Shown here piece by piece: positions 7,599 to 16,477 of a stretch of DNA of 64,000 nucleotides. The stretch is taken from positions 1,302,001 to 1,366,000 of the forward strand of contig NZ_CP033932.1 in assembly GCF_003815975.1 (NCBI RefSeq). Direction: 5' to 3'. The notes under the pieces are model-generated. The model was not told the origin of the DNA, did not search any database, and saw only the letters and a list, made by a program, of their open reading frames with translations. Position 1 is the first letter of the stretch, and every line of letters begins with the position of its first letter. The stretch comes from Chryseobacterium bernardetii. Its GTDB lineage: Bacteria > Bacteroidota > Bacteroidia > Flavobacteriales > Weeksellaceae. Made by a program: the position numbers and the translations under genes.

Positions 7599-7708
7599 CG
7601 AACAAAAATCAGGATATAAAAATCAGCATTTTTATTTTATCAATTTTTATCATTGATGAGTTTAACCTTGGTAATCTTTTGAAATCCAAAACATAAATTG
7701 ACTTGAAT

Positions 7709-8557
7709 ATGAAAAGAATAGGCATTATTGCTCTGGCATTGTTTATACAGCAGGTTTCTGCCCAAACTAACCGGTTTGTATATCAGGTAACCATGAAGCC
7801 GGACGCTGAAAATAAAGCAGATATCAAAACCGAAAATGCTTATCTTGATATTTCTCAGGATAAATCGGTTTTTTATTCTGAAAACAGAATCAAAAGGGAT
7901 TCTATCATGCAGAAAGCCTTTCAGGGCGGCGGCGGAAGAATGAGTATTAACAGGGAACAGATGGAAGGATTACGATCTAATATCAATTACTCCGTAGAAA
8001 AAGATAAAACAACCCAAAAAACTTATTTTAAAGACAGAATAGGACGGGATATTTACTCGTATGAAGAAGACAGACCTCTGGACTGGAAAATTTCTTCTGA
8101 AACAAGAAAAATAGGAGAATATAAAGTTCAGAAGGCAGAAACGGATTTTGCAGGCAGAAAATGGACCGCCTGGTTTACTACTGATCTGCCTTATCAGGAT
8201 GGCCCATACAAGTTTGGCGGCCTTCCGGGATTAATTGTAAAAGTGGAGGATGATAAGGGGGACTATTCTTTTGATCTGATGAAGAATTATAAAATTACAG
8301 AACTTCCTGCTTTAAATCAGTTTGGAAATACCTTAAAGGTAAAAAGAAGTGATTTTGTGAAGCAACAGCAAAAATTTAAAACCGATCCGATGTCATTTAT
8401 GACTCAGGGTTCAGGTATGGCTACAACAATAAGAGTAGACGGTGGGAGAGGCCCGGGTGGCGGCGGAAATCCGAATCCTGCTGATATGAGAAAGAGAATG
8501 GAAGAGAGAGTGAAAGAAGAGGCTAAGAAAAATTCAAATCCAATTGAATTGCAATAG
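7709..8557 (+). CDS. GLPGLI family secreted protein
   Basis: This 282-residue protein has a signal peptide ending near VSAQ. It carries the family-defining block GPYKFGGLPGLIVKVEDDKG about halfway along, which assigns it to the Bacteroidota GLPGLI family of unknown function. Some family members lie beside TonB-dependent receptors; none is adjacent here. The C-terminus is rich in glycine, proline, methionine and lysine (GGRGPGGGGNPNPADMRK) and looks disordered. The ATG at 7709 is chosen over an in-frame TTG six bases earlier. It is transcribed towards the minus-strand peptide/exporter module, with a strong hairpin between. Confidence 0.85.
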   Translation: MKRIGIIALALFIQQVSAQTNRFVYQVTMKPDAENKADIKTENAYLDISQDKSVFYSENRIKRDSIMQKAFQGGGGRMSINREQMEGLRSNINYSVEKDKTTQKTYFKDRIGRDIYSYEEDRPLDWKISSETRKIGEYKVQKAETDFAGRKWTAWFTTDLPYQDGPYKFGGLPGLIVKVEDDKGDYSFDLMKNYKITELPALNQFGNTLKVKRSDFVKQQQKFKTDPMSFMTQGSGMATTIRVDGGRGPGGGGNPNPADMRKRMEERVKEEAKKNSNPIELQ

Positions 8558-8564
8558 ATAAACG

Positions 8565-8595
8565 AATATCCCTGGAGAATTTCTCCAGGGATATT
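8565..8595. terminator. Strong hairpin between GLPGLI gene and C39 exporter gene
   Basis: AATATCCCTGGAGAA (8565-8579) and its exact complement at 8581-8595 form a 15-bp inverted repeat. It lies between two convergent genes and probably terminates both, although neither side has a long T-run. Its core resembles the hairpin at 13102-13128 on the other side of the peptide module. Confidence 0.65.
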
Positions 8596-8619
8596 AAGTA
8601 TAAAGCTTTATTTCTGATC

Positions 8620-10746
8620 TTATACGTTTCTATGATCAGTAAGGCTCATTTCATATATTTTAGTATCATTGATAACGTAAATATCATCTGCAATATCTTT
8701 TAGATCTTCCAGATAATGGCTAATGATAAGGATGCTTTTTTCAGATTTTAGCTTTTGAATTAACTGATAGATAAACTTTCTGCTTTCCTGATCAAGCGAG
8801 GAGGTAGGTTCATCTAAAATTAAAAACTGAGGTTCGTGATATAAGGCACGCATCCATCCAAGCAACTGTTTCTGACCACCGGATAAATTGATTCCTTCTT
8901 CTCCAACCAGTGTTAAATAACCCTGAGGCAAAGCTTCTATAAAATGATCAAATCCCAGCGATAATACTTTCTGTAACTGGAACTCATTCACGTTTTCGCT
9001 GAGTATAATATTTTCCAGTACATTTCCATTAAATAGCTGTATATTTTGTGGGACTACACTAATAAGACTCCGCCAGTTATTGATTGCGATATTATTTAAA
9101 CTGATTTCTTCATTAACTCTTATTTCACCATTTTCAGGCAGGAATTTTTTTTGTAATAACTCAGTAAGTGTTGTTTTTCCGGAACCACTTTTTCCTAGGA
9201 TACAGGTTACACTTCCTTTTCGTATCCTAAAGGAAATTTGATTAAGAAGCCTGCTTCTGCCTTTAAATCTAAAATCAATATTGCTGAGATCAATAGACCA
9301 AATTTCTTTAATTTCCTGCCCCTCTGTATTTTCTTTATCTAATAACAATGAATACTCAAACATTCTGTCAAATGCCACTTTTGCTTCCTGTATAGGAATT
9401 GTAACAAGGGCCAGATTTGTAATTGAAGTAAGCAAAGAACTGGATATCCCGAGTATGGCCATCAGCTCGCCAATCCTGATGTCATTATTTAAGACACTGT
9501 AAGAAGAAAATCCTAAAATAATAAGAAGGAAGATCACTAAAATAATCCCGGAATATAATGAAATTGTAAGGTTGAGCTTTCCAAGTTCAAAAATTTTTGT
9601 TTGAAAGAAACTAAAAATGAGGTCGTTTTTCTTTCCAAATAAATGCTGTTTGGAAAATCCTTTAATTACATCTATTCCCTTTATACTATCAATATAATTA
9701 GATTCATTGATACTATATGCTTGCATAACGTTTCTTTGGGCATCAATAATTTTTTTATTGAAACGGAATATAATAAAGAAAACAATAGGGGAGATTCCTA
9801 TACAGATTAAAGAAAGCCTCCAGGAGTAGAAGAATAAAAAACCAACGGATACTAAGACTCCCAGAATATCAACAAGTGTAGAGGTAATTAATTGTTTTAT
9901 AACAGCCTGTATTCTCAGAATGTCATTGAGTCTGGCTGTAAAATCTCCAATCTTTCTGGTGTCAAAAAAAGTTTTTGGAAGATGGAGTAAAGTATGGTAG
10001 AAACTCTTATTAGCTCTTTCATTAAATGATTTACTTTGTTTAATAATATAAAGTTCTCTTAAAGCACTAATTCCTACTTTTACAAAAAGTAAGAAACCAA
10101 GAAAAGAGATACTTAGTAACAGTAAAGATATTTTTTTGCGGGGCAAAATATCATCAATCAGTTTTTGTGAAAAAACAGACATTGACATTCCCAACAGTGT
10201 AATGGCAAAACCAAGTAAAAGAATAGTATAAATAGATTCCTGATCATCTTTAATAAGGCTTTTTATCCAACCCTTTTTCTTTTTCTGAGTTTCTTTTTTC
10301 TTCTCAAACTTTTCATTAGGAATAAGGGTGAGACAGGTTTTTGAGATCCATACTTCTTCCAGGTATTCTTTGGTCCAGTATTCTAAGCCTTTTGCCGGAT
10401 CTCCAATATAAAACTGATTGTTCCCGGAGCCATTATAGGAATAGCAAATAACATAATGTTCAAGTTTTTGATCAATAATAACATGTAAGATTATGGGAGC
10501 TGCATGTTTGATAAGTGATTCTATATCAGCCTCACATCCTTCTGCATCAAAACCAATTTCTTCTGCGCATTGATACAGTCCTAGTAATGTAGTGCCTGTC
10601 TTTCCGGTTCCACTTTTTTCTCTGAGAGCTTCTAAGGAAATGTTTCCTCCATAATATCTAACCAATGACTGAAGACATCCCACGCCACAATCTGTAAGGT
10701 CTTTTTGAAGAGAGAATGTTTTTTGTATGAGCTTATTTTCTTTCAT
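8620..10746 (-). CDS. Peptidase C39-containing ABC exporter (double-glycine leader peptidase/transporter)
   Basis: The 708-residue protein has the three parts of a leader-cleaving bacteriocin exporter. The N-terminal C39 protease shows Q14, catalytic C20 (TDCGVGCL), H97 (LEHYVICY) and D116 (YIGDPAKG). Six or so membrane segments follow between roughly residues 165 and 460. The C-terminal ATPase has Walker A GKSGSGKTT, signature NLSGGQKQ and Walker B FLILDEPTSSLD. Such proteins cut after a GG motif and export the mature peptide across the inner membrane. It overlaps the upstream thioredoxin-like gene by 14 bp and lies in the same block as two GG-leader peptide genes, its likely substrates. No HlyD-type adaptor gene is adjacent. 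Confidence 0.94.
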   Translation of the reverse strand: MKENKLIQKTFSLQKDLTDCGVGCLQSLVRYYGGNISLEALREKSGTGKTGTTLLGLYQCAEEIGFDAEGCEADIESLIKHAAPIILHVIIDQKLEHYVICYSYNGSGNNQFYIGDPAKGLEYWTKEYLEEVWISKTCLTLIPNEKFEKKKETQKKKKGWIKSLIKDDQESIYTILLLGFAITLLGMSMSVFSQKLIDDILPRKKISLLLLSISFLGFLLFVKVGISALRELYIIKQSKSFNERANKSFYHTLLHLPKTFFDTRKIGDFTARLNDILRIQAVIKQLITSTLVDILGVLVSVGFLFFYSWRLSLICIGISPIVFFIIFRFNKKIIDAQRNVMQAYSINESNYIDSIKGIDVIKGFSKQHLFGKKNDLIFSFFQTKIFELGKLNLTISLYSGIILVIFLLIILGFSSYSVLNNDIRIGELMAILGISSSLLTSITNLALVTIPIQEAKVAFDRMFEYSLLLDKENTEGQEIKEIWSIDLSNIDFRFKGRSRLLNQISFRIRKGSVTCILGKSGSGKTTLTELLQKKFLPENGEIRVNEEISLNNIAINNWRSLISVVPQNIQLFNGNVLENIILSENVNEFQLQKVLSLGFDHFIEALPQGYLTLVGEEGINLSGGQKQLLGWMRALYHEPQFLILDEPTSSLDQESRKFIYQLIQKLKSEKSILIISHYLEDLKDIADDIYVINDTKIYEMSLTDHRNV

Positions 10747-11263
10747 GTAATATGTTTAACAGTAATTTTTCCAGTTTTATAGCTCCAGAATTTCTTTTAA
10801 CAAGACGATTACTTTGGTTATAAACTAAAAAGTAAGGAACGGTGCTCATTCCCAGTTTCTGATAAAATACTGCCCCATCATCGTGACACCAGAAGATATT
10901 AATTTGTTTATCCAGATTATACTGATGGGCAAACTCTTTTATTTGGTCTAATGGTTCACTGGCAATCCAAATCCATTGGGTATTTTGATAGTGATTATTT
11001 ATTTTAGATAATTCTTCAGCCTCAGCCTGACAAAAATGGCAGGTAGGACTGAAGTAAATGATAACTTTAGTTTGGTTATTGCCAAAGGTTTTAGAATTCA
11101 GCAATGTTCTATTTATTGTAGTGAGGGAGAATGTTGGGATATCTTTTAGAGCTTCTGTTTTTTCTTTCTTTTTCCGGAAGTTAGCCCAAAGCCCTATCAT
11201 TATTCCAATACAGACAACAGGAATAATGAAAGCCGTTACTTTTAAGAAATTGATCTTCTTCAT
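10733..11263 (-). CDS. Membrane-anchored thioredoxin-like protein with CHFC motif
   Basis: This 176-residue protein has one N-terminal membrane segment (about residues 7-27), then a redoxin/TlpA-type domain. Residues C75 and C78 form a CxxC motif in YFSPTCHFCQAEAEEL, and the expected cis-proline lies in the later MSTVPYFLVY segment. It should face the periplasm and carry out thiol-disulfide exchange. Its start overlaps the stop of the upstream membrane gene by one base (TAATG), and its 3' end overlaps the exporter gene by 14 bp, so all three are translationally coupled. Because the putative peptide substrates each carry two cysteines, a role in forming or proofreading their disulfide is a reasonable inference. 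Confidence 0.85.
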   Translation of the reverse strand: MKKINFLKVTAFIIPVVCIGIMIGLWANFRKKKEKTEALKDIPTFSLTTINRTLLNSKTFGNNQTKVIIYFSPTCHFCQAEAEELSKINNHYQNTQWIWIASEPLDQIKEFAHQYNLDKQINIFWCHDDGAVFYQKLGMSTVPYFLVYNQSNRLVKRNSGAIKLEKLLLNILHERK

Positions 11264-11907
11264 TAAGACTGTATATTTAGTATAAGAAATGAAACGACAC
11301 CTGTCCAGAAAAGTAAGCCAAGCCCATAGGTCATAGCTGTAAGTCCAAAAGATTTTGGCAAGCCAATTTTTTTACCAGAAAGCTCCCAGATTCCCCAGGC
11401 TAAAAATCCCCAGTAAAAGAATTCAAATAAATTAACTAATTGTAGAGGATATGCCAGCCACTTTTCGGTAGAGAGGTATTCCCGTATGTTTAAAAGAGAC
11501 ATAGGATAGTAGGTTTGCAGGCTTTCCATTGTATAATCTGTATTTATCCAGTAGAAATGAATAAATTTATAAAGCCCAGCCATGATAAAAACAGATTCTG
11601 CTATCATAACAAGTGTTACCAAATCTGAAAATCTAAGGTTTTCTAATCCCGGAAGATCTAAAAGTTTGATAAAGTTCAGGCAAAAAGCAACTAAAACTAT
11701 CTTAATTCCTAATAGAACTGGAGTAGTGGCATAGCTTACCCACCACCATTTTTTCTGGCTTTCCAGGTAATCCTGTATCATTGCATTAGAATAGTCTTTG
11801 GCCAGAAAATCTATGATTTTTGTATTAGTAGTTATATATGTTTTGTCTAAGTAGGTAAGTAAAAAATAGCACATAATAATGCCTACGAAAAGTATAAGGT
11901 TTTTCAT
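11263..11907 (-). CDS. Unrecognised polytopic membrane protein of the peptide/exporter module
   Basis: I do not recognise this 214-residue protein. It starts with a membrane segment (LILFVGIIMCYFLLTYL) and has about five hydrophobic helices in total, with a longer soluble loop around residues 25-55 and another near residues 125-150. There is no CxxC pair, so it is not an obvious VKOR or DsbB oxidase. It is translationally coupled (TAATG) to the thioredoxin-like gene and precedes the C39 exporter. Plausible roles are immunity or a helper in export or maturation; the sequence does not decide. Confidence 0.7.
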   Translation of the reverse strand: MKNLILFVGIIMCYFLLTYLDKTYITTNTKIIDFLAKDYSNAMIQDYLESQKKWWWVSYATTPVLLGIKIVLVAFCLNFIKLLDLPGLENLRFSDLVTLVMIAESVFIMAGLYKFIHFYWINTDYTMESLQTYYPMSLLNIREYLSTEKWLAYPLQLVNLFEFFYWGFLAWGIWELSGKKIGLPKSFGLTAMTYGLGLLFWTGVVSFLILNIQS

Positions 11908-12055
11908 AAATTAAGTAATGGGGATGAAAAAAATTGAAGATTTTATTTATCCTGAGAGTAAGGATAAAAATTACTTATAAAGGAGTAAGGAACCAACTTT
12001 ACATATTCTGAAAAAATTGTGAAAATGAAAATTAAGAACATCATTATTGTTAATA

Positions 12056-12077
12056 AGAGAGGCTGTTACACCTCTCT
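12056..12077 (-). terminator. Weak hairpin downstream of the small peptide genes
   Basis: AGAGAGG (12056-12062) and CCTCTCT (12071-12077) form a 7-bp stem with an 8-base loop between the small membrane gene and the 214-residue membrane gene. The minus-strand sequence after it is only moderately T-rich, so it may attenuate rather than stop transcription from the peptide genes into the exporter genes. The rest of the 233-bp gap at 11908-12140 shows no convincing gene. Confidence 0.4.
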
Positions 12078-12140
12078 CATATAAAACCAATAGTAATATA
12101 TTTATCTCTTTTGGAGAAATATAGTAAACTAATATCCTTC

Positions 12141-12386
12141 TTACATTTTATAAAGTATAAAGCCCAGAAAAAATATTGAAAGGCCACAAATAAATGAAAA
12201 TGCAATATCTTTAAAAATTGTGCTTTTACTCATAGTTAATGTTAGAAGACATGACATTCCAACAATAAAAAAGAATGTATAAGCCCTGAAAGATAATGCA
12301 TCCATATAGTAGGCTACATATAAAACCGGAATATAAAATAGAATAGTTAGATTTCTTTTCTCTTTATAGTTTATTGAAACTGCCAT
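12141..12386 (-). CDS. Small hydrophobic membrane protein next to peptide genes; immunity candidate
   Basis: From the ATG at 12386 this is an 81-residue protein, basic at the N-terminus (INYKEKRN) with three hydrophobic segments. An earlier in-frame start at 12419 would overlap the upstream peptide gene, so the later start, 11 bp after that gene's stop, is preferred. I recognise no family. A small basic polytopic protein directly behind bacteriocin-like precursors is a common arrangement for immunity proteins, which is why that role is suggested; there is no direct evidence. Confidence 0.55.
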   Translation of the reverse strand: MAVSINYKEKRNLTILFYIPVLYVAYYMDALSFRAYTFFFIVGMSCLLTLTMSKSTIFKDIAFSFICGLSIFFLGFILYKM

Positions 12387-12397
12387 AATATTATTTT

Positions 12398-12541
12398 TTA
12401 CCAGGATGCTACCCAACAAGACCAGGCAAGGTTATACCCAAAAGCTGGATTAATTACAGTGGCAATGATGGCTCCATTCCAGCAATCTTTAGGACTTCCA
12501 CCCTTTACGGACTCCATTCTATGATTTTCTAGTTTTTTCAT
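12398..12541 (-). CDS. Double-glycine-leader peptide precursor B (bacteriocin-like)
   Basis: A 47-codon gene starting at the ATG at 12541; the longer open frame upstream is not expected to be used. Residues 1-15 (MKKLENHRMESVKGG) form a double-glycine leader with hydrophobic residues at -4, -7, -12 and -15 relative to the cleavage site, the pattern read by C39 peptidases. The predicted mature peptide is 32 residues, tryptophan-rich and hydrophobic, with cysteines at precursor positions 20 and 42. It follows precursor A by 11 bp and shares its leader design and its first cysteine position. It is probably exported by the C39 transporter of the same module. Function is inferred from architecture only. 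Confidence 0.75.
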   Translation of the reverse strand: MKKLENHRMESVKGGSPKDCWNGAIIATVINPAFGYNLAWSCWVASW

Positions 12542-12552
12542 AATAAAAGCAA

Positions 12553-12714
12553 TTACATAGAATACAGATAACAACCAAGTGCCCAAATTGAAGCTCCTAC
12601 AGCAACTGCAGGAATAAAAGCACCAACTCCACCAGCAGCAATAGCTGCTATATTACACTGATGAATATTTCCACCTTGCAAATTTTCCATTTGCGATACA
12701 TTTAATTTTTTCAT
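12553..12714 (-). CDS. Double-glycine-leader peptide precursor A (bacteriocin-like)
   Basis: This 53-codon gene runs from the ATG at 12714 to the TAA at 12553-12555. The leader is MKKLNVSQMENLQGG, with L/M residues at -4, -7, -12 and -15 and GG at -2/-1. The predicted mature peptide has 38 residues: a polar start (NIHQC), then an alanine/glycine-rich hydrophobic stretch (AAIAAGGVGAFIPAVAVGAS) and a C-terminal cysteine. Cysteines are at precursor positions 20 and 48, so one disulfide per peptide is possible. It is the first gene of the module and lies next to precursor B. The alanine/glycine-rich helix is typical of membrane-active class II bacteriocins; activity is inference. Confidence 0.75.
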   Translation of the reverse strand: MKKLNVSQMENLQGGNIHQCNIAAIAAGGVGAFIPAVAVGASIWALGCYLYSM

Positions 12715-13149
12715 TTTTTGAATTTTTATAATTACAATTTTTTTTTTTGCTACTTAATCCCTAGCAAGGAGTTCAGGTTTTCTATCGGCTCTATAATGCG
12801 CACTTACAGATCCTGTAGAAAACTATTTCAACGTTGAACAATCGAAATTAGAAATAAATATATCTTAACCGGGTGAAAAAACATGTATTCTTATTGTAAT
12901 TTGTTATACAATATTGAGGTCTTTTGAGACATTAAAAACCTTACTTTTTATCAAAGTCCCAAAAATTAATAAGATAATATGTTGAGGGGGATTTTTTTCA
13001 AAAAATAAAAAGAGAAATGGTTAATGTGCAAAATTATTTTCTTGTGTACAAATACATTTTTGTATGGAAAATAGTGGGAGATAAGGGAGATTTAAATAAA
13101 ATACCCTGAAGAAATTTTCTCCAGGGTAGTATTTTGTACACATTTATTT
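12715..13149. other. AT-rich regulatory region upstream of the peptide module
   Basis: About 435 bp separate the peptide genes from the metallopeptidase gene. It contains a perfect 12-bp palindrome TTCAACGTTGAA (12827-12838), a minus-strand TAATTTTG (-7-like, 13029-13036, with no well-spaced -33 element), a small hairpin at 12919-12930, and the metallopeptidase terminator at 13102-13128. I see no ORF. The transcription start of the peptide genes is not clear. Confidence 0.5.
13102..13128 (-). terminator. Terminator of the zinc metallopeptidase gene
   Basis: TACCCTG (13102-13108) and CAGGGTA (13122-13128) close a hairpin whose stem continues through an AGAAA/TTTCT pairing. It lies 22 bp after the stop codon on the minus strand and is followed by a T-containing stretch. 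Confidence 0.7.
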
Positions 13150-14013
13150 TTATTTCAAAAGCTGATTAAAAGTATCACCTTGTCTGATATCACCAGTGTT
13201 ATATCCTTTCATAAACCATTCTTTACGTTGAGCTGATGACCCGTGTGTAAAGCTTTCCTGGTTTACATATCCTTGCCCTCTTCTTTGGATATTGTCATCA
13301 CCTACGGCTTCTGCCGCATCTATTGCAGACTGAATATCTCCCGGTTCCAGAATTTTTTTAGTTTCATCCGTACGTTTAGCCCAGACTCCGGCATAAAAAT
13401 CTGCCTGTAGTTCTGTAGCTACAGATACTCTGTTCATTTCTGCTTCAGAGTACCTTCCGCTTCTTCTCAGGGCATCTACTTTTTGAGTGGTTCCCAACAG
13501 AGTCTGTACGTGATGTCCCATTTCATGAGCAAGAACATAGGCTACTGTAAATTCAGTTACTTTTGCCCCGAACCTTTGCTGGAGTTCACCGAAAAATTCC
13601 ATGTCCATATAGATTTTCTGGTCTGCAGGGCAATAAAAAGGTCCCATGGCAGATTGTGCAGTACCACATCCGGAGCTGGTAGTGTTTTCGAAAAGCACAA
13701 TTCTGGGTTCAGTAAAATTCATGCCATTTTCTTTGAAAATCTGACTCCAGGTTTGGGTATTCCAGCCAGACATCATATCAACCATTTCCCCGATCTTTTT
13801 TTCCTGTGTGGTAAGCTCTCTTCTTTCTCCTGTATTTTCTGAAGGCTGTATGCTGCCGGAATTCAATATACCGGAAGGATCTCCTCCTAAAAAGAAAACA
13901 ATAGCTGCTATAATTAAAGTTCCGAGTCCTCCACCAACAATCATACCGCCACTTCCGCCTCCGGAGCCACGGCGATCATCAACGTTTCCGCCTCTGTCGT
14001 CTGTCCATCTCAT
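13150..14013 (-). CDS. ypfJ: Neutral zinc metallopeptidase, YpfJ family
   Basis: This 287-residue protein has a glycine/arginine-rich cytoplasmic start, one membrane segment at about residues 23-43, and an extracytoplasmic peptidase domain. The zinc motif HExxH is at H163-H167 (LAHEMGHHVQ), and a later ATELQADFYAGVWA segment supplies the expected third-ligand region. Cysteines at 116 and 128 could form a disulfide. The C-terminal SSAQRKEWFMKGYNTGD block is characteristic of the YpfJ/KPN_02809 family. The substrate is unknown. It stands alone, with its own terminator. Confidence 0.9.
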   Translation of the reverse strand: MRWTDDRGGNVDDRRGSGGGSGGMIVGGGLGTLIIAAIVFFLGGDPSGILNSGSIQPSENTGERRELTTQEKKIGEMVDMMSGWNTQTWSQIFKENGMNFTEPRIVLFENTTSSGCGTAQSAMGPFYCPADQKIYMDMEFFGELQQRFGAKVTEFTVAYVLAHEMGHHVQTLLGTTQKVDALRRSGRYSEAEMNRVSVATELQADFYAGVWAKRTDETKKILEPGDIQSAIDAAEAVGDDNIQRRGQGYVNQESFTHGSSAQRKEWFMKGYNTGDIRQGDTFNQLLK

Positions 14014-14398
14014 AATAAATCTTTTTTGTGTTCGTAAATTTATAAAATTAAACCTTACGATAATTAAAATGTTAAGACGGGAAGATTTTTATACGGGTAA
14101 TTATTAAACTTTTAAATTAGTTCCTTTATACATTCATTACTCTTTTTTGAAGCCTTATCCTGCTAATTGTTATAAATAGAGTATAATGCCAGTTATACTT
14201 CCGGAGAAACAGCAATTGCAGGAGACTCGACTCTCTTTATATATCTGCAAAGAATAATTTTGAAATATTTTGCTGCTAATTTATGTTATTGGTAACCTTA
14301 AGTGTTCGGGGCTTTACTCCCAAAAATAAAAAAAGAGGATGCAAAGATCCTCTTATGTATAAATGAATACTTCATATGTTAAAGTATCTAAACCGTTT
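14014..14398. other. Intergenic region between metallopeptidase and sulfatase genes
   Basis: Apart from the terminator hairpin at 14333-14354, I see no ORF, RNA gene or clear promoter. The metallopeptidase promoter should lie near 14020-14070, but no good TAnnTTTG match is visible. Confidence 0.5.
14333..14354 (-). terminator. Terminator of the LtaS-type sulfatase gene
   Basis: AAGAGGAT (14333-14340) pairs with ATCCTCTT (14347-14354), and a T7 run follows on the minus strand. Confidence 0.8.
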
Positions 14399-16477
14399 TT
14401 ACCTGTTCAGTTGTTTGGTTTTCAGCCAATAAGAAGTTGACTGGTACGCTGAAATAGCATCATCTATTAGTTTCTGATCCGGGTTTTTCAACAGCTTCTC
14501 ATCATAATAGAGCTTAAATTCCGGAGCAAGATCACTTTTTTCTAAATCCAGAGAGTATTGTTTGGCTTTCTTCACCGGAGAAATGATGGTCAGGCGATTG
14601 TTCTTCACAAAACCAAGATCCTGATAGGTGGCAATGTAGGCCTTAGGCTGAAATTCTGGTTTGAAAACATCCTGACCTAAGAATTTAGATTGATAGCTAA
14701 AATTAAGTAATCCAAAAAGGGTAGGCATCACGTCAATCTGAGACATCAGGGTATCAAACTTCTGCGGCTGGATAAACCCTTCTGAAAAGATCATTGCAGG
14801 GATTCTGTACTTATCCATTGGAAGTTCCGTTTTTCCGGCGCTGGAAGCACAATGGTCTGCAATAATCACAAAGACCGTATTTTTATACCAATCCTGCTTT
14901 TTCGCCATATCAAAAAACAATTTCAGAGAATAATCTGTATATTTTACACCGCCTTCACGGGATTTTGAAGTTCCCGGAATGTCAATTCTTCCATCAGGGT
15001 AAGTGAAAGGCCTGTGGTTGGAAACCGTCATCCAGTGGTTGAAGAAAGGTTTCCCTGATTTTGCTTCAGCATTCATCACCTGAATAGCTTTTCTGGCCAT
15101 ATCTTCATCTGCAACACCCCATACATTGGCAAAGGTAATTTCTTCCGGCTTAAAATTGTTTCTGTCTACAATATCATATCCGTTCCCGCCGAAAAAGTCC
15201 TGCATATTATCAAAATAGCTGTATCCGCCATACAGGAATTTTACATCATATCCTTTTGACTTGAATACATTTCCTGTAGTGAATTTGTTTTTATTATCAT
15301 TTCTTTTGATGATACTTTCTCCGGCAGTAGGAGGAATACATAGGGTTAAAGCTTCCAGGCCGCGTACAGTTCTGTTTCCTGTCGCATAAAGATTAGTAAA
15401 CATCAGTGATTTATCTGCAAGGCTATCCAGAAATGGGGTAATCTCCTGGGTATTCCCATAATGTTCAAGGAAATCTGCAGAAAGACTCTCTATAGATATC
15501 AGCACTACATTTTTTTTGAGTTCCGGCTGCTCTGCTACAATATTTCTTGATAAAGTATGCTGCGGGTATTGGCTTAAGAAGTTTTTCTCTGCCTGTTTCT
15601 GGTCCAGTTGCGAATAAAACTGGAAATAATCAAGCTCATTATGGGTAAAAGCCCAGTAAAACTTAGGAAGTCCATTGGCCTCAATTTCATCAGCAAAAAC
15701 ATTGTCTGATTTGATTTGCATTAATGATGGAAGAGTAAGTAGGCTAATGGCGCAAAGTACAGCGAAAGAACCCAGTAAGATCAGTTTCTGTTTGAAGTTA
15801 GGAAGCTCCAGTAATTCATCTTTTGTTTTTTTATAGATAAACCAGGTGATGGTTAATGTAACAAGCATTATACCTGAAAATAAAGGAATAACAGGATAAC
15901 TTTCCATGATATTTCCAATCACTTCATTCGTGTATATTAAATAATCTACGGCAATAAAATTATAACGTACCCCAAATTCATTATAGAAGAAATATTCACT
16001 TACTCCATTGAAAATGATAAGCAGCACATAAAGCAATAAGGTAATAAAGTATAAAACATTCCGGATCTTTATTCTCTGGGTTGGAAGGAAAAGCATTAAA
16101 CCAAACAGGAATGCCTTTACCCCTACAAAAGAAAGGGCTATTTCTGTTACAGAGCCTCCGTATTGCTTAAAGATATTATTGGGAATAAGCCAGATGTACA
16201 GGAAAAATGTAACCAATACGCCGAAGATAATATATCCGTAAGGCTTTTTATATTTCGAATTGGAAAGGAATAAAAAATAGAGGGCAAGGATGGTACTGGC
16301 AAGGATAAAAACAAAAATATCATTGATGAGCCCTACAAACAGTACTTTAATGATCTCAAAAAATCCGAAACTGGCTGTAGTGATGGGGTGAAAAAAGAAT
16401 ACTACCCTTATAATCAAGGAAATAATCAGATAAAAGATTCCTAAGTACAGGAATGGTTTTATTTTTTTTAGAAACAT
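14399..16477 (-). CDS. LTA synthase family protein (membrane sulfatase/phosphoglycerol transferase type)
   Basis: The 692-residue protein has about five membrane segments in its first 215 residues, then a large extracytoplasmic alkaline-phosphatase-superfamily domain from about residue 300. Visible elements are LISIESLSADFLEHYGN (metal-binding acid), the ATGNRTVRGLEAL block with the candidate catalytic threonine, and a late VIIADHCAS metal site. In Gram-positive bacteria such enzymes polymerise glycerol phosphate; Gram-negative relatives include OpgB-type or phosphoethanolamine-type transferases. Lipoteichoic acid is not expected in this organism, so the real substrate is probably another envelope glycan or lipid. 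The family is clear, the substrate unknown. Confidence 0.88.
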   Translation of the reverse strand: MFLKKIKPFLYLGIFYLIISLIIRVVFFFHPITTASFGFFEIIKVLFVGLINDIFVFILASTILALYFLFLSNSKYKKPYGYIIFGVLVTFFLYIWLIPNNIFKQYGGSVTEIALSFVGVKAFLFGLMLFLPTQRIKIRNVLYFITLLLYVLLIIFNGVSEYFFYNEFGVRYNFIAVDYLIYTNEVIGNIMESYPVIPLFSGIMLVTLTITWFIYKKTKDELLELPNFKQKLILLGSFAVLCAISLLTLPSLMQIKSDNVFADEIEANGLPKFYWAFTHNELDYFQFYSQLDQKQAEKNFLSQYPQHTLSRNIVAEQPELKKNVVLISIESLSADFLEHYGNTQEITPFLDSLADKSLMFTNLYATGNRTVRGLEALTLCIPPTAGESIIKRNDNKNKFTTGNVFKSKGYDVKFLYGGYSYFDNMQDFFGGNGYDIVDRNNFKPEEITFANVWGVADEDMARKAIQVMNAEAKSGKPFFNHWMTVSNHRPFTYPDGRIDIPGTSKSREGGVKYTDYSLKLFFDMAKKQDWYKNTVFVIIADHCASSAGKTELPMDKYRIPAMIFSEGFIQPQKFDTLMSQIDVMPTLFGLLNFSYQSKFLGQDVFKPEFQPKAYIATYQDLGFVKNNRLTIISPVKKAKQYSLDLEKSDLAPEFKLYYDEKLLKNPDQKLIDDAISAYQSTSYWLKTKQLNR

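Follow-up and report, generated by a model that had tools for sequence, protein, structure and literature searches.

The 64,000-nucleotide (nt) stretch of the Chryseobacterium bernardetii genome analyzed here (contig NZ_CP033932.1, positions 1,302,001 to 1,366,000; hereafter the window) carries a minus-strand cassette of six genes that probably encodes a two-peptide bacteriocin mounted on a bacteroidetocin-type export set, or chassis, and moved horizontally as a unit. The gene order is peptide 1, peptide 2, an 81-amino-acid (aa) protein, a 214-aa membrane protein (TM214), a thioredoxin-like protein and an exporter joining a C39 peptidase to an ATP-binding cassette (ABC) transporter (Table 1). 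A first-pass annotation of this DNA had proposed a new two-peptide bacteriocin-type system; a secreted two-peptide operon is still the best reading, but the export set is already known from the published description of the bacteroidetocins (PMC6671954). The annotation missed that relationship, as well as the likely immunity gene, the insertion site, a shared 5′ element and the exchange of cargo.

Both precursors, of 53 and 47 codons with matching leaders, lie on the minus strand where the first-pass annotation had placed them, and its description of them was borne out: each double-glycine (GG) leader has hydrophobic residues at −4, −7, −12 and −15, each mature peptide has a Cys at position 5 and a second near its C terminus (positions 33 and 27), and both mature peptides are hydrophobic, one being Ala/Gly-rich and the other Trp-rich. 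Their net charges are −0.2 (peptide 1) and −0.6 (peptide 2), and their calculated average masses, each with one disulfide, are 3792.4 and 3540.0 Da. A search of 197 genomes found the pair in 4, one of them the window's own (E 1e-30 to 1e-23), and the order peptide 1, peptide 2, 81-aa protein was identical in these four Chryseobacterium genomes; two further matches (E about 0.005) proved to be other GG peptides and were rejected as members of the pair. The ratio of nonsynonymous to synonymous substitution rates was 0.10-0.13 in all six comparisons for peptide 1; for peptide 2, three of six gave 0.06-0.09 and the remaining three were saturated at silent sites. By these substitution patterns, both small open reading frames (ORFs) are real genes under purifying selection. 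Eight genomes of the genus had a strong TM214 match (E < 1e-100); four of them kept the pair, and the other four carried different GG-leader, two-Cys peptides in the same slot. The lack of conservation that the first-pass annotation had named as refuting its proposal was not observed.

The two membrane proteins that the first-pass annotation could not recognize, the 81-aa protein and TM214, are both present, but the second of them can now be placed. TM214 matched no Pfam family, and its NCBIfam match was far below the cut-off; with E values of up to 1 allowed, PF04893 (Yip1) matched 5 of the 41 family members (best 7.6e-5), but not the window's protein. We found 1725 TM214 relatives at E 0.001 among 5795 candidates, and relatives occurred in 11 of 197 genomes of the relatives set, 28 of 395 phylum genomes and 20 of 395 class genomes (window's own counted each time), and in 42 named loci. 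Both the thioredoxin-like gene and the C39-ABC exporter were present in 37 of these 42. Among 20 phylum loci, a selection from 33 listed places, an exporter was found at E < 1e-60 in 12 and a thioredoxin in 11; the other eight loci (L103, L111, L112, L114-L116, L118 and L120), whose TM214 relatives have no such C39-ABC exporter in their neighborhood, suggest that TM214 may have a second role. Among 72,556 plasmid records, the sole match was a distant relative on a Flammeovirga pectinis plasmid (NZ_CP034564.1, 43952-44575; 22% identity, E 6e-5).

According to the published text, the bacteroidetocin regions encode, besides the peptide, a five-transmembrane (TM) protein, a thiol oxidoreductase and a C39-ABC transporter (Coyne et al. 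2019, PMC6671954). There, the chassis makes killing peptides in Bacteroides, and in E. coli these four genes are enough; activity was attenuated when the gene for the TM protein, the oxidoreductase or the peptide was deleted, while the TM protein and oxidoreductase gave no protection (PMC6671954). The bacteroidetocins are described as acting singly, from regions for which the text gives no immunity gene (PMC6671954), and their target is reported to be BamA (PMC8546649). We tested the homology of the TM proteins through a bacteroidetocin-like locus, L144, which stands in for the published protein. It came from a search of 301 genomes of family f25 with the TM214 family profile, which gave four matches at E 0.001, two of them strong (L144 and L153); the Bacteroidaceae-like nature of f25 is weakly suggested by PF13149, which occurred in 4 of 119 genomes, including two of f25, as well as in the control Bacteroides ihuae. 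L144 has the published bacteroidetocin layout as the text describes it: first comes a TM gene, then the gene for a 60-aa precursor (15-aa GG leader, four Cys, Lys at +1), followed by those for an AhpC-TSA/thioredoxin protein and a C39-ABC exporter. Its TM protein matched the TM214 family at E 1.7e-19 by profile and with an hhalign probability of 97.8%, while the window's oxidoreductase had no phmmer match to that of L144 at 1e-3. L144 became the test case because another locus, L121, failed as one: its TM protein had only four database relatives, and no thioredoxin-like neighbor was found. By homology and gene content, TM214, the oxidoreductase and the C39-ABC exporter are thus a bacteroidetocin-type export set. 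In the other strong f25 locus, L153, one TM214 relative is surrounded by four GG-leader peptides that resemble one another and have four Cys each.

The exporter bears out the earlier claim of an intact C39 triad (C20, H97 and D116), with Walker A at 518 and LSGGQ at 621; its Pfam matches are Peptidase_C39 (1.6e-27), ABC_membrane (6.8e-30) and ABC_tran (1.3e-26), and its best solved relative is 4ry2, an ABC-type bacteriocin transporter (E 2.3e-100). The thioredoxin-like protein, also as claimed, has a CxxC motif, which follows an N-terminal hydrophobic helix, and it matches AhpC-TSA (2.8e-7) and Thioredoxin_2 (7.7e-7) in Pfam.

The cassette lies between a metallopeptidase gene, present in 127 of 128 genomes of the genus, and a convergent gene that we take to be of the GLPGLI type. 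In a comparison of the 30 best metallopeptidase loci (the window and 29 relatives), 28 of the 29 relatives had an empty site, with the GLPGLI-type gene 62-193 bp from the metallopeptidase gene; the cassette occupied this position in the window and in one other genome only (G035). A further genome (G005) was empty here and carried the cassette elsewhere. On this comparison the cassette is a discrete insertion. No transposase was seen among its ORFs.

The genes for the two peptides and the 81-aa protein are 11 nt apart from one another, 233 nt then precede TM214, and the export genes overlap, TM214 and the thioredoxin-like gene by one shared base and the thioredoxin-like and exporter genes by 14. 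Terminator-like hairpins were found at both edges of the cassette; the one after the exporter gene is weak by itself, since the scan returned 4 hairpins in total against 2.7 expected from shuffles. Cargo and TM214 are separated by a further hairpin, GAGAGG...CCTCTC followed by a T-rich run (12080-12053, minus strand; −16.8 kcal/mol, z −3.97), which is absent from the scan's list; L030, L031, L035 and L022 have counterparts in the same position, L031 with other cargo. It may be a partial terminator that lowers exporter mRNA relative to peptide mRNA.

Table 1. Features of the cassette and its flanks (window positions).
Feature	Position	Strand	Description
Metallopeptidase gene preceding the cassette	14013-13150	-	
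Terminator-like hairpin after metallopeptidase gene, upstream cassette edge	13128-13102	-	Terminator scan
5′ element upstream of peptide 1	12804-12700	-	Diverged copy of genus-wide element; hairpin 12767-12747, TTGCTA-loop-TAGCAA
Peptide 1 precursor	12714-12553	-	53 aa; 15-aa GG leader MKKLNVSQMENLQGG, predicted cut before NIHQC; ends GCYLYSM
Mature peptide 1 (predicted)			38 aa; Cys 5 and Cys 33; Gly/Ala-rich
Peptide 2 precursor	12541-12398	-	47 aa; 15-aa GG leader MKKLENHRMESVKGG, predicted cut before SPKDC; ends SCWVASW
Mature peptide 2 (predicted)			32 aa; Cys 5 and Cys 27; Trp-rich
81-aa hydrophobic membrane protein, candidate immunity protein	12386-12141	-	Hydropathy peaks 30-53 and 56-81
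TM214, 214-aa membrane protein	11907-11263	-	Homologue of TM protein in bacteroidetocin-like locus
Membrane-anchored thioredoxin-like protein, likely thiol oxidoreductase	11263-10733	-	CHFC from residue 75
C39 peptidase-ABC exporter	10746-8620	-	708 aa; Pfam domains, C39 triad, ABC motifs
Terminator-like hairpin after exporter gene	8595-8565	-	Terminator scan
Convergent gene on far side of cassette	7703-8557		Presumed GLPGLI type

Cargo was sought in 35 of the 42 named loci (L039, L041, L051, L052, L063, L066 and L071 were left out as having a short upstream region or being a fragment or duplicate), counting as cargo any ORF upstream of a TM214 relative with a GG leader and two Cys near both ends. 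This rule returned 44 peptides, while its controls (the opposite strand, the region beginning 3.5 kb beyond the start of the TM gene, and one mononucleotide shuffle per locus) all gave zero; the downstream zero holds for the rule and the stretch scanned, as L029, L104, L106 and perhaps L042 have likely peptides within the export block or behind it. One peptide was found in 16 loci, two in 11, three in 2 and none in 6, and in 11 of the 13 multi-peptide loci a pair lay within 50 nt. A second kind of pair, recognized by eye, recurs in L024, L025, L036, L047, L065 and L070 in the same order throughout, and spans Chryseobacterium, Flavobacterium and Mucilaginibacter. For comparison of properties we used a set of 41 peptides that includes the window's two, after dropping four Cys-less ORFs (L046, two in L064, and L068), the fragment in L071, and repeats or near-repeats (L030, L035, L070 and the third peptide of L033). 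Exactly two Cys were present in 36 of the 41, a 15-aa leader in 40, and all 41 were hydrophobic on average; none reached a charge of +1, and 22 were at −1 or below. At E up to 0.5, Bacteriocin_IIc matched 10 of them (best 1.1e-5) and MccV 5 (best 4.2e-4); the cerein/lactobin IIb family matched 4 (best 0.0011).

These counts bear on the possibility that the two peptides are independent one-peptide bacteriocins that share an operon and an exporter, each active alone. The 16 single-peptide loci indicate that this set exports single peptides, and the bacteroidetocins are described as acting in that way (PMC6671954). However, the window's pair stays together in all four genomes with one small membrane protein for both, and the second kind of pair recurs in a constant order in six loci, so that we regard independent action as unlikely.

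The 81-aa protein matched no Pfam or NCBIfam family and was found in 6 of 53 loci (L019-L071), only those with this peptide pair. Other cargo is accompanied by other membrane proteins, such as the 174- and 183-aa proteins, alike by eye, that occur with the CTWGYAG peptide in L023 and L024. Small membrane proteins that differ with the cargo fit immunity genes, and by this pattern the 81-aa protein is likely to be the immunity protein for the pair.

A cargo boundary inside the leader was found in the one case examined, two genomes of different species (G081 and G080). Their sequences were 95.7% identical over 2055 nt, a stretch that takes in the 5′ region and ends 30 nt into the leader; past this breakpoint, one carries the window's pair type and the other the second kind of pair. 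Their export regions were 77.7% identical over 3.2 kb. Each genome stacks two modules, every one with its own copy of the 5′ element and leader. Across the loci, silent sites in the leader were less diverged than those of TM214 in 68 of 75 leader pairs (0.415 versus 0.756; the lowest of 200 TM windows was 0.49), but among peptide 1 orthologues the leader was hardly more conserved than the mature part (0.50 versus 0.52). From the comparison of G081 and G080, the cargo seems to be exchangeable behind a fixed export set. Near the 3′ end of L022 (the start of its reverse strand), a two-Cys peptide with an LNVTQ leader lies about 4 kb upstream of the cassette and is perhaps a stranded module.

The 5′ element is not confined to these cassettes. 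In 11 of 13 modules with LNVSQ-type leaders, from ten Chryseobacterium cassettes, CCATGYCAGGGATTRTATGRCA or a close form stands about 30 nt before the ATG, preceded by a palindrome resembling GCTGATCAGC. Using a 24-nt pattern with up to 2 mismatches, we found 98 sites of the element (CCATGYCAGGGATTRTATGRCAAA) in 68 of 123 genomes of the genus, and none with the reversed control. The following ORF was small with a GG-type leader by rule in 69 cases, otherwise small in 23 and longer in 3, and there was none in 3; several of the 23 have a visible GG and others are secretion-signal-like. Several peptide families are represented overall. Among the 92 small ORFs, 89 begin 27-37 nt after the element. 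The variable stem pair was T-A in 61 sites, T-G in 22, C-G in 14, C-T in 1 and C-A in 0, with wobble tolerated; the absence of C-A would have a chance of 5e-8 if the sites were independent, which they are not. In an alignment of 73 of the 98 sites (A6), thinned by hand without a rule, 99.2% of cells pair and there were 13 double changes against 4.9 in shuffles, while two of five pair measures were unremarkable (reached by 62 and 61 of 500 shuffles). In 68 of 98 sites, compared with 7.75 in shuffles, the 120 nt upstream contain TAnnTTTG, which we take to be the Bacteroidetes −7 box; its usual distance from the element is 81-92 nt, and transcription of the element is therefore probable. In 49 of 98 sites, a 10-nt palindrome stands no more than 30 nt upstream, so that a DNA operator is also conceivable.

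The window's own copy was missed by the pattern at 2 mismatches, which finds no site in its genome, but was recovered by a covariance model (R1) that spans the start codon too (46.8 bits, E 4.4e-6, pairing kept; next match in the window at E 0.82). The folding energy of its hairpin was no better than that of shuffles, and the model gave no match for the L035 cassette. Rfam returned nothing at the gathering cut-off for window positions 8000-14500; for ten loci with the canonical element, the lone match at E up to 1 was BSnc120 (25 bits against a cut-off of 114), which lies off the element, so that Rfam 15 has nothing covering it in these ten. The covariance model placed two sites in the window's genome at E below 1e-3, one at this cassette and the other before a GG peptide of SSLENKK type. 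We put forward tentatively, as a proposal that could well prove wrong, that Chryseobacterium reloads one chassis by recombination, with modules (5′ element, leader, one or two toxin peptides and their immunity gene) swapped or stacked at the leader, and that the 5′ element unites, genus-wide, unrelated secreted peptides, bacteriocin-like and graspetide-like, as one regulon.

In the mechanism that we envisage, both GG-leader precursors would be made together, the C39 domain of the exporter would cut each after GG, and the ABC part would move the peptides to the periplasm; the membrane-anchored oxidoreductase would close one disulfide per peptide (Cys5-Cys33 and Cys5-Cys27), and TM214 would help the peptides to mature or to be exported, the apparent role of its bacteroidetocin counterpart. 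After crossing the outer membrane, the two hydrophobic, neutral peptides would jointly target the envelopes of related bacteria, with the 81-aa membrane protein protecting the producer. The export set would serve as a constant chassis, while recombination within the 5′ element and leader that modules share would swap the peptide-and-immunity module from strain to strain.

As described in the published text, the bacteroidetocins (proposed class IIf) share with this system a 15-aa GG leader (both window peptides fall within the stated 15-16 aa), an operon that joins a C39-ABC exporter and a thiol oxidoreductase to a homologous multi-TM protein, horizontally acquired DNA, a Bacteroidota host and at least two Cys per peptide (PMC6671954). 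There are also differences: the window's peptides have two Cys each against four in bacteroidetocins A and B, come two per locus against one, are 38 and 32 aa long when mature against 42 in A and B and 42-48 in the nearest three, and are near-neutral against +2 to +6; their genes stand before the TM gene and not after it (TM, peptide, oxidoreductase, exporter), and a candidate immunity gene is present, unlike in the bacteroidetocin regions as described (PMC6671954). Some of the 17 further peptides in that paper may be of the present type (PMC6671954).

The other comparisons are with systems outside this chassis. Class IIb bacteriocins of Gram-positive bacteria are marked by two peptides, GxxxG motifs and a net positive charge. 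The window shares with them an adjacent pair of short GG-leader peptides (11 nt apart and co-inherited in four of four genomes), one exporter and a neighboring small membrane protein, and some chassis relatives weakly match Bacteriocin_IIc or the cerein/lactobin family; it differs in its Gram-negative producer and in having two Cys per peptide. A GxxxG zipper was rejected as class IIb evidence, since neither mature peptide contains GxxxG and small-xxx-small spacing was reached by 638 and 2453 of 5000 shuffles, not above chance. Since it departs from each in features that were tested, the system should not be classed outright as a bacteroidetocin or as class IIb. Class IIa microcins such as microcin V are Gram-negative products with a GG leader, a disulfide, a C39-ABC exporter and a small membrane immunity protein, all in common with the window as we read it, and the MccV profile matched chassis peptides as given above; the window differs in its two peptides and in having TM214 and an oxidoreductase in the cassette, with no membrane-fusion gene among the six. 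The pneumococcal blp region has one exporter, exchangeable peptide-and-immunity modules and shared leaders; it resembles the chassis in this arrangement, although the organisms and peptides are unrelated. Among titles and abstracts we found no two-peptide GG bacteriocin from Chryseobacterium and no such 5′ element, a search whose scope leaves out most subscription papers and all supplements.

Several of these observations weigh against a two-peptide bacteriocin. The class IIb hallmarks of GxxxG (count zero in each mature peptide) and a net positive charge are missing; the window's two peptides match no bacteriocin family in Pfam, NCBIfam or bacteriocin profiles at E up to 0.5; a membrane-fusion gene was not found among the six genes of the cassette, although a partner elsewhere in the genome is possible; and pairing is not a rule of the chassis, as 16 of 35 loci have a single peptide and 6 have none by the rule. 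In addition, what points to an immunity role for the 81-aa protein is its co-occurrence with the pair in four genomes, because the bacteroidetocin regions, as their text describes them, have no immunity gene that could serve as precedent (PMC6671954).

The peptides could instead be exported and sensed signals. Such a role is known for GG peptides with C39 exporters, TPR-type putative regulators, seen by eye, adjoin the cassettes in L020, L023, L025 and L026, and ComC matched 3 of 41 chassis peptides (best 0.039). Nevertheless, the cargo varies widely among close relatives, each kind with its own small membrane protein, and there is no receptor or kinase gene among the six, which together make this reading improbable. 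It is more improbable still that the peptides are further modified, ribosomally synthesized products (acted on, for example, by a radical SAM enzyme) and not plain disulfide peptides: TIGR04149, a family of radical SAM-modified peptides, matched 10 of the 41 chassis peptides when E values up to 0.5 were accepted (best 0.0036) and weakly resembles the window's leaders (E 0.056 and 0.11; 13.4 and 12.4 bits, where the cut-off is 25), but the match is limited to residues 2-21 and 2-23, and no modification enzyme is encoded among the six genes.

If the two-peptide reading is correct, the bacteroidetocin export set also serves neutral peptides that come in pairs and have two Cys each, in Flavobacteriia and in further Bacteroidota, and candidate immunity genes accompany the chassis, unlike in the bacteroidetocin regions as published. 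Several dozen concrete peptides would be available for testing on Bacteroidota, both environmental and opportunistic. That cargo can change within the leader, as at the boundary found here, suggests a simple route by which a bacteriocin could be changed behind a fixed exporter in Gram-negative bacteria. The 5′ element, if confirmed, would offer one signature for finding many secreted peptides of the genus, and raises the question of its sensor.

Two sets of neighbors are of further interest. A second C39-ABC locus of the window's own genome (L296, C1:1864500-1876500; and L293) has the SSLENKK-type GG peptide under the same 5′ element; by eye, its neighbors are ATP-grasp-, SPASM-, C39-ABC- and HlyD-like genes and a TPR protein with a C-terminal helix-turn-helix-like end, and we take the locus to be grasp-with-spasm-like. 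The putative TPR-type regulators in L020, L023, L025 and L026, about 580 aa in length with the domain assigned by eye, are possible regulatory neighbors of those cassettes; a prolyl-oligopeptidase-like gene is also present in L020, L023 and L025, and in L020 and L025 it has small GG peptides as neighbors.

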